From NCBI GenBank assembly GCA_003566775.1, contig PXBW01000281.1, positions 1 through 35,906 of the forward strand: a stretch of DNA of 35,906 nt, given 5' to 3'. Shown here piece by piece: positions 9,333 to 31,269 of this stretch (positions within the stretch are counted from its first letter, which is position 1; each line of letters opens with the position of its first letter). Under the pieces are notes generated by a model that worked only from the letters and a program-made list of their open reading frames with translations, was not told where the DNA came from and did no database searches. This DNA comes from a candidate division WS1 bacterium. GTDB taxonomy: Bacteria; Armatimonadota; Zipacnadia; Zipacnadales; UBA5352. A program made the translations under genes and the position numbers.

Positions 9333-10793
9333 TCAGCCCAGCGCCCCCGGATAGAGCCTCTCCATCGCTGCACGGTAGGCGGCGTACGCGGCGTCGCCGG
9401 CCTCTCCGTGCGTTTCGTCAGGCGTGAAGCTGCGGTCGGCGCGGTAGAACCTCTGCGAGCCCGCCTCGATCGAATCCAGCACGCCCGCCGCCACGCCCCC
9501 GAAGATCGCCGCGCCCAGCACCGCCGCGTCCGGGCACCCGGGCACCGACAGCGGGGTGCGCGTGATGTCCGCCATTAGCTGCATCCACCAGTCGGAGCGC
9601 GCCGCGCCTCCCAGCACGCGCAACTCCGCCACCGGCTGACCGGCCTCCGCCGCAAGCTCCAGCGCCTGCCGGGCACAGAAGCAGACCGCCTCGATTACCG
9701 AGCGGATCATGTGCGAGCGGCCGTGTCCGAGTGACATGCCGACGAAGCCCCCTCGAACATCGCTGCGGAAGCTCGGCGTGGCCGTCCCCGAGAAGTGCGG
9801 CAGGCAGATGAGGCCGTCGCAGCCGAGCGGCGCCTCCTGTGCCTCGGCCAGCAGGGTGTCGTAGTCGCCCGCCCCCAGCAGGTCGCGCAGCCACGTCAGC
9901 AGCACCCCGGAGGTCTTCGTGTAGGTCAGCAGATAGTGCAGGCCCGGCACCGCATGGCGCCCGTCGAAGCCGCCCTCATCTGCGTGGGTTTCCGCGCTGG
10001 TGACCACGATCGCCATCGCGGTACCGACGGTCCCGGAGGCGAGGCCCGGCGCGATGTTCCCTGCGCCCACCGCGCCCGCAAGCTGGTCGTTGCAGCCGAG
10101 GGAGACGGTCGCGCCCTCGCGCAGGCCAAGCTCATCCGCCGCCTCCCCGGCCAGTTGCCCGATCGGCTCCCCGGGGCCTCCCAGCGGGCTGAGCCACTCG
10201 CGGGGCACACCGACCACGTCGAGCATCTCCTGCCACCAGTCATCCTGCGTGCGATCGACCATCGCCGTGGAGCCCGCGTTGCTCAGGTCCAGCCGCAACT
10301 CCCCGGTGAGTCGCAGGCCGATGAAGTCCGGCAGCATCACGAGGTGACGCGTCTGCGCCCACGTCTCCGGCTCGTTTTCGCGCAGCCAGAGGATCTTCGG
10401 CGCTGAGTCGATGGTGTTCACCGCGGCCGATCCACGCCGCAGGCGCAGTTCATCAGCGGCCACCGCATCGTTGATCCGCCGCGCCTCATCCTCCGCGCGG
10501 GTGTCCAGCCAGACGATCGCCGGGCGTAGCGGCTGCAGGTCCGCGTCCAGCGGCAGGAAGGTCTGCCCCTGGCTCGACAGACCGATCCCGATGACCTCGG
10601 GATGCCCCGCTGCTTCATGCGCCTCGCGCGTGGCCTCGACGACGGCCCGCCAGTAGGTCTCCCCCTCAAGCTCCATCCACCCGGCGCGCGGCGAGGTGGG
10701 AGAGTACTCCGAGCGCGCGACGCCCAGCATCTCTCCGCTCTGCGCGTCGAAGATGCCGACCTTCACCGCGGTGGTGCCGAGGTCAATGCCCAT
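9333..10793 (-). CDS. FGGY-family carbohydrate kinase (xylulokinase-like)
   Basis: This ATP-dependent sugar kinase has 486 aa from ATG 10793. The ribonuclease-H-like ATPase start MGIDLGTTAVKVGIFDA is at the very N-terminus. SSQGQTFLPLD and VWLDTRAEDEARRIND follow, with the catalytic-type motif GCNDQLAGAVGAG in the middle and VLGGAARSDWWMQLMADI in the second domain. These are closest to the xylulokinase branch. The open frame runs 74 codons further upstream, but that part encodes repeat-derived peptide and is left out. GGGAGG lies some 20 nt before the ATG, rather far. It pairs functionally with the neighbouring isomerase. The substrate is probably a ketose, but its identity is not visible. 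Confidence 0.85.
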   Translation of the reverse strand: MGIDLGTTAVKVGIFDAQSGEMLGVARSEYSPTSPRAGWMELEGETYWRAVVEATREAHEAAGHPEVIGIGLSSQGQTFLPLDADLQPLRPAIVWLDTRAEDEARRINDAVAADELRLRRGSAAVNTIDSAPKILWLRENEPETWAQTRHLVMLPDFIGLRLTGELRLDLSNAGSTAMVDRTQDDWWQEMLDVVGVPREWLSPLGGPGEPIGQLAGEAADELGLREGATVSLGCNDQLAGAVGAGNIAPGLASGTVGTAMAIVVTSAETHADEGGFDGRHAVPGLHYLLTYTKTSGVLLTWLRDLLGAGDYDTLLAEAQEAPLGCDGLICLPHFSGTATPSFRSDVRGGFVGMSLGHGRSHMIRSVIEAVCFCARQALELAAEAGQPVAELRVLGGAARSDWWMQLMADITRTPLSVPGCPDAAVLGAAIFGGVAAGVLDSIEAGSQRFYRADRSFTPDETHGEAGDAAYAAYRAAMERLYPGALG

Positions 10794-10922
10794 CAGTGCG
10801 GCACCGGCACCACTGACGGAGCCGTCCTCCCGCCGTGTATTCTCTTGTCCTCGGAGAGGCGGGACCCCGCTCCCGGCTGTGTCGTTGACCGGTGCGTCGG
10901 TCCGATCGGATGCACGCAACGG

Positions 10923-10950
10923 CGCACGGACAGGAGTGTCCGTGCCACGG
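10923..10950. repeat. dispersed palindromic repeat, copy A
   Basis: This 28-bp element is identical, in inverted orientation, to copy B at 11777-11804. Its core is an inverted repeat: GCACGGACA, 4-nt loop, TGTCCGTGC. It lies in the 218-nt gap between the amidohydrolase and kinase genes. More of that gap (about 10810-10950) is rich in short palindromes, such as GGCGGGACCCCGC-type blocks, and may belong to a longer composite repeat. Confidence 0.75.
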
Positions 10951-11011
10951 AGCCATTGAGAAAGGTCGATGTGTGCGTTTGTGGCACGCCACGCATGGGT
11001 GCAACTGCGCA

Positions 11012-12130
11012 TCACCAGCGCTCCTTTCGCGCAAGGACCTCGTCGATCTGCCGCCGCGCATTGCCGTGGAAGATCGCGGAGATCTCATCGTCGCCGAAGC
11101 CAAGGGCGAGGATCGTGTCGAGGCAGGCCGCGATCGCCTCGTAGAGCGAGAGCGTGTACGTGGCCTCGACCTCGGGCGGCTGGCGATCGGTGTTCCACTC
11201 GTAGTCACCGCTGGTGAGGTTGATGTAACGGTCGCCCTCCCAGCGCCGCCTGCCGCGCATGTAAAAGACCGGCTGGTCTGACGCCCACATGATTCGCTCC
11301 GGTCCGAAGCGGTCCAGCGCCAGCGCATGCACCGCCGGGTTCAGCACCGCGGAGTTGTCGAAGAGCAGTCCCTCGTCATCGGCCAGGGGCGGGAAGCCCT
11401 CGCGCGCGTAGCGCCCGGCGTAGGAGCGGCCGAGGTGCGCGATTACCAGCTTCACCTCAGGATAGCGCGCCCTGATCTCGATGATCTCCTCGATGTTTGC
11501 GCGATCCGCGAGACGCTCCTTGCGCGGCAGGTGCAGCGTTACCCATGCGCCAAGCTCATGGAGCAGTTCGAGGTGCTCGTGAGGCAGAAACTCGAAGATG
11601 CTCACATCCCCGCCCTGAAAGTCGGGAATCAGCCGCTCGTAGGGCTTCACGCCGATGATCGCGGGTCTGCGAAGCTCCTCCGCCAGCTTCTCCACCGACC
11701 AGTCCGGCCTGCTCAGCGCCAGCCCCACCGACCCGCCACGCCCCTTAGATCGTACATGCTCATCTTCCCTCTCGGTCCGTGGCACGGACACTCCTGTCCG
11801 TGCGTCGTCGTTCCACGCGAACGTCTCCGACACGTACGCATTGCTCGCCTCGCAGTCGCAGTTGCTCTGAGGCGAGCCGAAGGCCAGCATCTCCACCTCG
11901 CGGTCGGGGAAGAGGACCGCGTAGGCCTCCCGAGCCTCCTCGATGGACTCCGGCCCGGCAATCCCCTCGGGAAAGGTGCCACGCTTGAAGCGCTCCTGGG
12001 ATTCGTCCACGTGCTCGGGCAGGCGAACGTGCCGGTGGGCGTCGAAGATGCGCTCCGGAAGCCACGGATCGATCCGCTCCTCGAAGAAGGCCCGATCCAC
12101 GTCGGTGTACTCAAAGTAGGGGTGGCTCAT
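11012..12130 (-). CDS. amidohydrolase family protein with an in-frame repeat insertion
   Basis: This is a TIM-barrel metal-dependent hydrolase of the amidohydrolase-2 type, 372 aa. The metal motif is HRH (His32, His34, in IFDAHRHV). Further ligands are likely in WVTLHLPRKER and KLVIAHLGRSY, with Asp in IMWASDQPV near residue 287. ATG at 12130 follows GAGAGGA 5 nt upstream, so it is chosen over the GTG at 12166. Residues about 107-133 (nt about 11732-11812) do not look like the family. They are encoded by a copy of a palindromic repeat and read through in frame, apparently replacing nothing. The flanks (SNAYVSETFAW before, SVGLALSRPDW after) would join smoothly without it. Activity may survive, since the insertion falls in a surface loop. 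The substrate is unknown. Confidence 0.75.
   Translation of the reverse strand: MSHPYFEYTDVDRAFFEERIDPWLPERIFDAHRHVRLPEHVDESQERFKRGTFPEGIAGPESIEEAREAYAVLFPDREVEMLAFGSPQSNCDCEASNAYVSETFAWNDDARTGVSVPRTEREDEHVRSKGRGGSVGLALSRPDWSVEKLAEELRRPAIIGVKPYERLIPDFQGGDVSIFEFLPHEHLELLHELGAWVTLHLPRKERLADRANIEEIIEIRARYPEVKLVIAHLGRSYAGRYAREGFPPLADDEGLLFDNSAVLNPAVHALALDRFGPERIMWASDQPVFYMRGRRRWEGDRYINLTSGDYEWNTDRQPPEVEATYTLSLYEAIAACLDTILALGFGDDEISAIFHGNARRQIDEVLARKERW
11777..11804. repeat. dispersed palindromic repeat, copy B, inside the amidohydrolase gene
   Basis: This is an exact 28-bp match in reverse orientation to copy A (10923-10950), with the same 9-4-9 hairpin core. It falls in codons about 109-118 of the amidohydrolase and adds the peptide ARTGVSVPR to it. 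The insert as a whole seems to be about 27 codons long and keeps the reading frame. Confidence 0.8.
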
Positions 12131-12200
12131 CAGTGTCCTCTCGTCGATTCGTAGTTCATCCGCCACGCGCCGGCGCGGCGGGTGTCAATGAGCAACTCGC

Positions 12201-22837: not shown

Positions 22838-25360
22838 TTAGTGCATGATCTGCCCGCCGGTCACGTTGATCGCCTGGCCCGTCATGTATTCTGACTGCTC
22901 GGAGGCCAGGAAGACTACCACGTTTCCGACGTCCTCATAGGTGCAGCCACGCTTCATCGGCACCTGATCAACGTACTTCTGCCGCACTTCTTCCTCGGTA
23001 ATGCCCCAGCGCTCGGCGTACTGCGCGTAGAGGCTGTCCACCCAGAGCGGCGAGTCGAGGAGGTTGCCCGGGCAGACCGCGTTCACTCTGATTCCCTGGT
23101 CGGCGAACTCCAGCGCGAGACTCTGCGTCAACCCAATGCCACCGAACTTGCCCGAGGCGTACGCCGAATTCTTGAACGACCCCTTCTTGCCGGACTTCGA
23201 GTTGATCTGGATAATCGTCCCCCCGGTGCCATGCTCCAGCATGACCTTCGCCGCCTGCTTCGCCACGATGAAGTAACCGATGAGGTTGACCTCGATCACT
23301 TTGCGCCAGTCATCAATCTCGAAGCCGAGCGTGTCGCCGGCGATGAGTATCCCGGCGTTGCTTACGACGATATCAAGCCCGCCGAGTTCCTCGACGCACC
23401 GCCTCATCGCAGCCGCAACCGACGCCTCGTTGGTCACGTCCATTCCGATTCCGAGTGCTCGTTGGTCGGTCTCGGCCGCGATACGGTCTGCTGTTTCCCG
23501 TGCTCCCTCGTTGTTGATGTCCGCGATACCCACATCCGCGCCCTCGCGAGCGAGCCGTTCAGCCAGAGCTTCTCCGAGGCCCTGCGCCGCACCGGTAACC
23601 AGCGCAACGCGCCCCTCGAGATGGCGGCAGGGTAACTTACCTGCCTGATCGGGACAGCCGGTCACATGAGCGCGCAGCAGGGTCCTCTCCCCTTCTGCGG
23701 TCCAGGCCCCGGATTCATCGATATGCGCGGCTACCTCGGGTTCGATGCTCTCAAGCTCGTGAAGCGCCGTCAGGGGCAGGTCACGTACATGAGGGTAGAT
23801 GACCGCCTTTCCGGTCAACTCGCCCTCAGAGACCGCGTGCAGGGCGTCCCATGCCGCCTCAATGCCCCCGATCGCCGCCACCGCGCGGTTGGGAGCGAGT
23901 TCGCCGCTTGCGGTCATCTCGATCGTGGTCTCAAGGTCCTCGATACCCGACCCACTGGTGCCGGTGTAACGTACTCCCCTAAGCGCCACGTCCGAGACAT
24001 CCATCTCTACCATCGTGCCCCGTGCGACGCCCGCGAAGATGTTATACATGCCGCCATCGCCGAGGTCTCGCGCGTGCCCGGCGATCACCGGCGGCACCGG
24101 CACCAGCACGACGACATCATCGAAGCCCCCAGGCGCGTACTTCGCCATTTCTTCAGCGGTGGCCTGTGAGCCAAGCTCTGCCGGGTTGAGCGTCACCAGT
24201 GTGCGATCGTTGCTCTCCGCCAAAGCTCCGTAACGCTCCGGCAGCGTGGCGAGGCGCTCGTCGTCGATGTCGGTCGCCACCACAACTGATGGCCCTCGGG
24301 GGTCCTCCAGCGCCCACTGCACATGCATCTGCCCCATCGGTCCGGCCGCACCGGAGATAAGCATTCGCCCTCCCTCGACGGACTTAACCGAGCGGGTTGA
24401 TGCGTACGCCTCACCGATGTTGAGGCCGTCTGCACCTACGTAGCGCGTCCCATCGTAATGAATCCGTCCTGCATCGACCTCTACCGCCCGCTCAAGCGGC
24501 TCATCTATCATCAGGCAAAGCACTCCGTCGTCCGCCAGCAGTGTGGCGAGGCTTTCAACCTGGTCGGCTGTCGGATCCAGCAGCAGGAGATCGTCGATCC
24601 CACCACGTTCACGGGCCACCCGCGCAAGCTCCTCCTCGTCGGAGATCTCGATCCGCTCCGCGTCCGCGAACTCCCCCATCAGATCCTCAGGGACATCGAG
24701 GCCAAGCACCACATCCGGCTCTCCCCGGAGTTCGCCCATGGTGAAGCCATCGCGAGCTTCTGGACCGCGAACGATCGCAAGCGTACCGTTTTCCGCGAGG
24801 TCTTTGCGCGTCTCGACCCGGAAGGCGCACAGCACGCACGCCCAGGGCTCTGCCAGCGCCGCCTCCGAGTAGCCGATGTCCTCTGGAATCGGAATCAGGT
24901 AACAGCCGTCATCGCCGTCGATGATCGGCGTGGGAATGGTTACGAACTGTTCCATGCCGCCGTGAAGCGCGTAACCGAAGGCGAGGCCCTCGCCGTTGTA
25001 GTAGATATCCGCCTGCACCACGAAGCGGTCGCCGACAGAGAAGTCGTCGGTACGGTCGTCTCCGACCTCCACGATCGTCAGTGCCACCTCATGACCGAGC
25101 ACCACCGGATCACTCTTCAGGTCGCGACCGGAGATGCGTGGATGATCGGGGCCGAGCCGCAGTACCTTGATGTCCGAGAAGCAGAGACCGCAGGCGTCGA
25201 CGCGGGCCAGTAACTCATCGCGGCCGATCTGCGGCATCTCCCACTCAACCGGTTCGCGCTCCCTTCCGAGGTTCTCCAATCCCACGCCGTAAAGCGGCCA
25301 GGCGAGGTGCTGTTGAGGCAATGGGCAGGTTCCATCAACGTAGCTGTCGTAATCGCTCAT
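22838..25360 (-). CDS. fused zinc-type alcohol dehydrogenase and SrlD-like short-chain dehydrogenase
   Basis: The product has 840 aa. Residues about 1-190 are an MDR (medium-chain dehydrogenase) catalytic domain, with CGLCFSD and LGHEVALTIVEVGD. Residues about 210-320 look like a degenerate Rossmann fold without the usual GxGxxG. Residues about 325-540 hold an intact Rossmann domain (MLISGAAGPMGQMHVQ). Residues 585-840 are an SDR: TGAAQGLG at 589-596, Ser721, and the YxxxK pair Tyr734/Lys738. The SDR part is close to sorbitol-6-phosphate 2-dehydrogenase (NSKSGKKGS, FGGIGLTQSLAL, CPGNLL, VTGGQ near the end). The MDR zinc lobe lacks its four structural cysteines. ATG at 25360 follows GGAGG at 8 nt; an in-frame ATG at 25375 is possible. 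Confidence 0.8.
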   Translation of the reverse strand: MSDYDSYVDGTCPLPQQHLAWPLYGVGLENLGREREPVEWEMPQIGRDELLARVDACGLCFSDIKVLRLGPDHPRISGRDLKSDPVVLGHEVALTIVEVGDDRTDDFSVGDRFVVQADIYYNGEGLAFGYALHGGMEQFVTIPTPIIDGDDGCYLIPIPEDIGYSEAALAEPWACVLCAFRVETRKDLAENGTLAIVRGPEARDGFTMGELRGEPDVVLGLDVPEDLMGEFADAERIEISDEEELARVARERGGIDDLLLLDPTADQVESLATLLADDGVLCLMIDEPLERAVEVDAGRIHYDGTRYVGADGLNIGEAYASTRSVKSVEGGRMLISGAAGPMGQMHVQWALEDPRGPSVVVATDIDDERLATLPERYGALAESNDRTLVTLNPAELGSQATAEEMAKYAPGGFDDVVVLVPVPPVIAGHARDLGDGGMYNIFAGVARGTMVEMDVSDVALRGVRYTGTSGSGIEDLETTIEMTASGELAPNRAVAAIGGIEAAWDALHAVSEGELTGKAVIYPHVRDLPLTALHELESIEPEVAAHIDESGAWTAEGERTLLRAHVTGCPDQAGKLPCRHLEGRVALVTGAAQGLGEALAERLAREGADVGIADINNEGARETADRIAAETDQRALGIGMDVTNEASVAAAMRRCVEELGGLDIVVSNAGILIAGDTLGFEIDDWRKVIEVNLIGYFIVAKQAAKVMLEHGTGGTIIQINSKSGKKGSFKNSAYASGKFGGIGLTQSLALEFADQGIRVNAVCPGNLLDSPLWVDSLYAQYAERWGITEEEVRQKYVDQVPMKRGCTYEDVGNVVVFLASEQSEYMTGQAINVTGGQIMH

Positions 25361-25467
25361 CCGCACTTCCTCCATGCCTGTCCTACCAGGTGGCGATATC
25401 TCTTCCGCCGGTTTCCTGTCAGGCTGTCTCATTGCCGCGAAGATCTTTGGTCACGCGCTCCTGTCAG

Positions 25468-31237: not shown

Positions 31238-31269
31238 ACGGACGCGGCACAGTGAGATGCCGCGTCCGT
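31238..31269. terminator. perfect 11-bp hairpin downstream of the fused E1 gene
   Basis: ACGGACGCGGC (31238-31248) and GCCGCGTCCGT (31259-31269) are perfect complements around a 10-nt loop. It starts 26 nt after the stop of the E1 gene on the leftward strand and 50 nt before the next gene. There is no T-tract, so it may stop transcription with a helper factor or be a copy of a dispersed palindromic repeat. Confidence 0.5.

Follow-up and report, generated by a model that had tools for sequence, protein, structure and literature searches.

A Probable REP Palindrome Carried in Frame by an Amidohydrolase Gene of a Candidate Division WS1 Bacterium

The DNA stretch analyzed here (the window, 35,906 nucleotides of contig PXBW01000281.1 from a candidate division WS1 bacterium) contains an amidohydrolase gene in which a short palindromic repeat lies within the coding sequence without disturbing the reading frame. 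In all likelihood, this palindrome is a repetitive extragenic palindromic (REP) element with a GTGG head, which was moved in trans by the REP-associated tyrosine transposase (RAYT) encoded at another place in the same genome (G000:C204) and landed in frame in the amidohydrolase. The presence of a palindromic repeat within the frame of this gene, originally predicted from the DNA letters alone, is borne out by the finding of orthologues in which the site is empty. We present below the evidence for this interpretation, the points that speak against it and the alternatives.

The REP Palindrome and the Amidohydrolase Insert

The core of the element is the 9-4-9 hairpin of the original prediction, GCACGGACA-CTCC-TGTCCGTGC, which lies at 11782-11803 and has an inverted twin at 10924-10945. 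Read on the forward strand from 11779, the sequence is GTGG-CACGGACA-CTCC-TGTCCGTG-C, which has the architecture of a REP: a GTGG head, a perfect GC-rich stem of 8-9 bp (9 with the shared G) and a CTCC loop of four nucleotides. By its published definition, a REP has a GT(A/G)G head directly preceding a perfect GC-rich palindrome with a loop of 2-4 bases (PMC2817692; PMC3733652), and GTGG is the majority head in the GTAG-20 elements of Opitutus terrae (PMC3733652). The features concerned are as follows.

11776-11808, forward strand: REP unit TCC-GTGG-CACGGACACTCCTGTCCGTG-CGTCGT, with the GTGG head at 11779-11782, the stem-loop at 11782-11803 and then a common flank (ACGRY when read in the opposite strand); delimited by head plus hairpin and by the block conserved across genomic copies.
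10919-10951, reverse strand: second, inverted REP copy in the gap that separates the FGGY kinase gene from that of the amidohydrolase, with the palindrome at 10924-10945 and the GTGG head at 10945-10948; recognized by sequence match.
11012-12166, reverse strand: amidohydrolase gene carrying the insert, 384 residues, Amidohydro_2 (Pfam PF04909, E=1.7e-16), which has an orthologue in the majority of the family's genomes.
11738-11812, reverse strand: in-frame insert of 25 codons (75 bp, residues 119-143, NDDARTGVSVPRTEREDEHVRSKGR), absent from orthologues L019-L025 by protein and codon alignment.
11738-11775, reverse strand: non-REP remainder of the insert, about 40 bp, with no second copy in the assembly by DNA search of the own genome.

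The inverted identity between the insert and the neighboring gap is real and slightly longer than the 28 bp first reported, for it covers 29 bp (10923-10951), or 33 bp with one mismatch; by chance, the 29-mer would be expected to recur in the window ~2e-12 times. Pattern searches gathered 16 exact copies of the palindrome in the 4.4-Mb assembly of the same organism (G000), comprising those in the amidohydrolase and in the gap plus 14 elsewhere, as well as two further near copies. This number is far above the two occurrences that the original prediction named as compatible with chance, and it compares with ~2e-4 palindromes per genome expected by chance; the reversed pattern, used as a control, had no occurrence. 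Since three contigs begin near a copy, the true number is probably higher. There are 22 copies in a genome of the same genus (G001), five in G003 and one in G006, with none in the 57 others searched; the genomes compared are for the most part drafts split into many contigs. Most copies lie outside credible genes, as judged by eye, and a search of Rfam gave no match. Around many of the REP copies in G000 and G001, the hexamers AACGAC and AACGGC recur frequently on either side, which might reflect either a target preference or separate low-complexity filler.

The insert was delimited against seven insert-free orthologues (L019-L025), of which L019-L023 are syntenic genes of the same family. Five genomes of the family (G002, G003, G004, G005, and G009) and two genomes of the same order (L024 and L025) have no extra residues between NAYVS and GLAL. 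The insert is indeed in frame, and the frame through it is open, but the alignment yields 25 codons from 11738 and not about 27 from 11732, as had been proposed. The repeat adds codons to the gene, as also proposed, yet its share is only ~33 of the 75 bp (11776-11808), or ~11 of the 25 codons. For the remaining ~40 bp, nothing beyond chance level was found elsewhere in the assembly, two weak partial matches in contigs C193 and C190 having been inspected and judged to be chance. Perhaps this part was acquired together with the REP, from a locus that has since disappeared or is missing from the assembly, or perhaps it represents a second event.

The Associated RAYT

A Pfam search retrieved a single Y1 transposase gene in G000, that of C204. 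Its product scores 85.4 bits against the NCBIfam model of REP-associated tyrosine transposases (NF047646, cut-off 80), and its score against the IS200 model does not reach the cut-off set for that model. The protein has its HuH motif as HLH at residues 91-93 and, by motif, its catalytic tyrosine as Tyr155 in YIRSNP; its sole match in the PDB is TnpArep (4er8, E=4e-4). The gene sits between two oppositely oriented REP copies, and so does its 66% identical counterpart in the sister genome (G001:C76). Where a flanking REP could be found next to RAYTs of 45-59% identity (in G001, G003, G007, and G009), the REP keeps GTGGCACGG and has both stem arms changed together; the compensated-stem variants beside other RAYTs of the family are GTGGCACGGGCG...CGCCCGTGC, GTGGCACGGGCC... 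and GTAGGACAGGTC..., and a more distant RAYT in G006 adjoins a GTAGGACAGGTC REP. This covariation links each RAYT to its own REP. As far as sequence can tell, all the testable defining features of a REP/RAYT unit are present.

In mechanistic terms, the RAYT (TnpA-REP, a HuH single-strand transposase) would recognize the folded single strand formed by the GTGG head and the hairpin, cut beside the folded REP and join it elsewhere, by analogy with the enzymes of E. coli, Stenotrophomonas, and Marinomonas. In vitro work on three model systems has shown that such enzymes bind single-stranded DNA in its folded form and cut and join it at dinucleotides close by (PMC8266576). Intragenic copies would persist if their length is a multiple of three, if they are free of stops and if they fall in a loop that the protein tolerates. 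In the amidohydrolase, one REP copy plus ~40 bp of extra sequence would thus have entered between two conserved blocks, adding 25 residues. The RAYT of C204 is the presumable mover of this copy.

Several points weigh against this interpretation. Some 20 copies is a modest number for a REP, and movement is something we infer from the comparison of genome sequences. G003 has five copies of the palindrome, but we found no RAYT in it with this exact REP on its flanks, the best one being bordered by a variant. The ~40 bp of non-REP sequence, without a source in the assembly, indicate more than a simple REP insertion. Finally, no clear target duplication is seen at the amidohydrolase insert; IS200-type enzymes are not known to make one.

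In-Frame REPs in Other Genes and Re-use of Sites

The amidohydrolase is not the only gene with a REP in frame. The hypF gene of G000, which encodes a protein of 816 residues with all HypF domains, has ~45 residues between its YrdC-like and Kae1-like domains, a region that in three orthologues is a short linker, and the DNA of this insert includes a REP of the amidohydrolase type, read as THGQECPCHG, and a REP of a second family, GGCGGGGCACGGGTCCCCGCC. In G001, an FAD-dependent oxidoreductase has a clean insertion of 33 bp or 11 codons, read as VYGQECPCHGK, that represents a slightly altered REP and is lacking in three orthologues; no target duplication could be seen by eye when its locus (L206) was read against the alignment. 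Together with the genomic copies, 16 or more, and the empty orthologous sites, these two cases support the original suggestion of a mobile palindrome that enters genes and adds peptide.

The second REP family, GTAG-GGCGGGG-ACCTGTG-CCCCGCC and variants, has 33 copies in G001, 21 in G004, nine in G008, and four in G007, with none in controls. Five of its copies in G004 are clustered in contig C136, spaced by 39 bp or a multiple. At the site of the amidohydrolase insert, members of two other genera have extra residues as well, 12 in G007 and 33 in G006. The G007 insert is a second-family REP (reverse complement GTGG-GGCGGGGACATGTGCCCCGCC), and that of G006 is a longer GTAG-GGCGGGG variant, of which more partial copies occur in the G006 genome. 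The insertions of G000, G006, and G007 have site, orientation and phase in common. Re-use is similar in hypF, for G001 and G002 have other inserts both at the REP site of G000 and at a second site.

With respect to hypF in this genus, in-frame inserts occur at two sites (loci L006 in G000:C156, L236 in G001, and L237 in G002). Those of G001 and G002 include a repeated sequence read as PPSPLPLLQQTTLRGRERG or PPAPLPLSQQTTLRGRERG, which recurs in G003 at a place where the frame of hypF is broken (L238).

These data raise an evolutionary question within the REP interpretation: Was a single ancestral insertion inherited, its sequence being later replaced by other REPs, or did three independent insertions occur? 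The shared site, orientation and phase fit a single origin, which with losses and replacement would be compatible with the poorly resolved gene tree of the amidohydrolases. On the other hand, not one of 200 bootstrap trees unites the insert-bearing genes as a clade, G009, which is of the same genus as G006 and has the nearest relative of its gene, is free of insert, and different REP families are involved. We therefore regard a single origin as the more doubtful of the two histories. As a tentative proposal, loops of conserved enzymes such as the amidohydrolase loop and the hypF linker might be places where REPs of unrelated families land in frame again and again in different genera, with RAYT activity steadily diversifying these loops.

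Alternative Explanations

The alternative that survives best, though improbable, is a coding palindrome like the Rickettsia palindromic elements (RPEs), selected for a particular peptide upon its insertion in genes. RPEs are ~150 bp long and have a conserved peptide frame (reviewed in PMC10969869). In-frame insertion in several enzymes would agree with this idea, and so would the REP unit in which all six frames are free of stops, although by our estimate such a property is not rare in a GC-rich 33-mer. However, no peptide conserved in one frame was found across the insertions: the REP contributes ARTGVSVPR to the amidohydrolase, HGQECPCHG to hypF and GQECPCHG to the FAD oxidoreductase and, being read in different frames, does not encode a dedicated peptide. 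Moreover, most copies are apparently intergenic and the element has its own RAYT. RPE-4 and RPE-6 have been classed as CGTC REPs (PMC3733652), which have a CGTC head and no transposase, whereas here the head is GTGG and a RAYT is associated. The comparison with RPEs made in the original prediction thus holds for the effect on the gene but not for the family, which is that of REPs with RAYT.

Two further explanations have very little probability. An old species-specific loop of the amidohydrolase, with the palindrome there and in the gap arising by coincidence or local duplication, would suit a site that is variable and has differing extra residues in three genera, but it is refuted by the dispersal of 16 copies, in all of which head and tail are conserved, and by the REP sequence in frame in two other unrelated genes, above all the 33-bp insertion of the FAD oxidoreductase, while the extra residues of the other genera are themselves largely REPs. 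A miniature inverted-repeat transposable element derived from a DDE-type insertion sequence, with target duplication, would equally be small, palindromic and dispersed, but the length of ~30 bp, the GTGG head, the RAYT between inverted copies and the duplication-free FAD insertion speak against it; no in-phase target duplication was seen at the amidohydrolase or FAD sites, the parent insertion sequence not having been searched for. A GCGTGG hexamer near both ends of the amidohydrolase insert, which could be taken as such a duplication, does not keep the phase of the orthologous sequences and could be due to chance.

The Amidohydrolase Gene and Its Neighbors

The amidohydrolase belongs to a conserved gene row of aminotransferase, amidohydrolase, FGGY kinase and an arabinose-isomerase-like gene. 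In the stretches fetched from seven other genomes of the family, its orthologue is still adjoined by the aminotransferase and the kinase, and the comparison consequently concerns true orthologues; their alignment, envisaged in the original prediction, has shown them to lack the insert residues. The gene downstream is the following.

9333-10793, reverse strand: FGGY-family kinase (Pfam FGGY_N from residue 75 of the open reading frame; start at MGIDLGTT).

Since the true start of the kinase is at ~10793, the REP copy at 10919 is intergenic, in a true gap. Outside the insert, the pairwise ratio of nonsynonymous to synonymous substitution (dN/dS) in pairs with this amidohydrolase is 0.20-0.34, from which it follows that the gene has been under purifying selection, a value that says little on the period after insertion. 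The enlarged enzyme presumably works. Neither sequence nor profile searches retrieved a PDB homologue for placing the insert in the fold, and an AlphaFold model built without alignment (mean pLDDT, the predicted local confidence, of 34) was not used.

Elsewhere in the window, a strong hairpin with a 12-bp stem lies in the gap between two genes (31238-31269) and is possibly a terminator, and an open reading frame of 864 residues (22838-25432, reverse strand) fuses ADH_N (zinc alcohol dehydrogenase) and short-chain dehydrogenase domains.

Occurrence in Other Phyla

Among the matches listed from a collection scan, the palindrome occurs also in Fimbriimonadales, Gemmataceae, Lentisphaerae and a few others. 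A close relative of the G000 RAYT near copies of the palindrome was found, among these listed matches, only in the WS1 genome G001, and we accordingly make no claim of shared descent across phyla. The same listed matches include forms with varying loops (L054-L167), abundant in some Fimbriimonadales and often headed by GTAG, and a metagenome-assembled genome of Gemmataceae in which copies form inverted pairs ~33-34 bp apart, resembling REPINs.

Relation to Known Systems

Intragenic REPs are already known, having been published for O. terrae, Rickettsia conorii, and the recB gene of Xanthomonas, in which two species have different REPs at about the same site (PMC3733652). What is new here is the lineage and the re-used in-frame sites. 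The little-studied WS1/Zipacnadia lineage joins those bacteria that have a complete REP/RAYT unit, and it does so with in-frame insertions for which empty orthologous sites are available. Two enzymes with different REPs at re-used sites offer, therefore, a natural test between neutral debris and changed protein loops.

The system resembles the REP/RAYT systems of Stenotrophomonas type, or REPtrons (PMC2817692; PMC3733652; PMC8266576), in the GT(A/G)G head, the perfect GC-rich stem with a loop of 2-4 nucleotides, the RAYT flanked by two inverted REPs, the covariation of RAYT and REP and the intragenic position of some copies. It differs from them in its lineage within Armatimonadota, the GTGG head, the number of ~20 copies and the ~40 bp that extend beyond the REP in the intragenic insert. 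With the cases of O. terrae, R. conorii, and Xanthomonas recB (PMC3733652), it shares in-frame REPs in conserved enzymes, site re-use and, for O. terrae, GTGG heads, whereas the genes involved are different (amidohydrolase, hypF, and FAD oxidoreductase) and the re-use extends over three genera. As to the RPEs, palindromic repeats likewise lie in frame in unrelated genes and add peptide to them, but the element of G000 is ~30 bp long, differs in reading frame from gene to gene and is accompanied by a RAYT.
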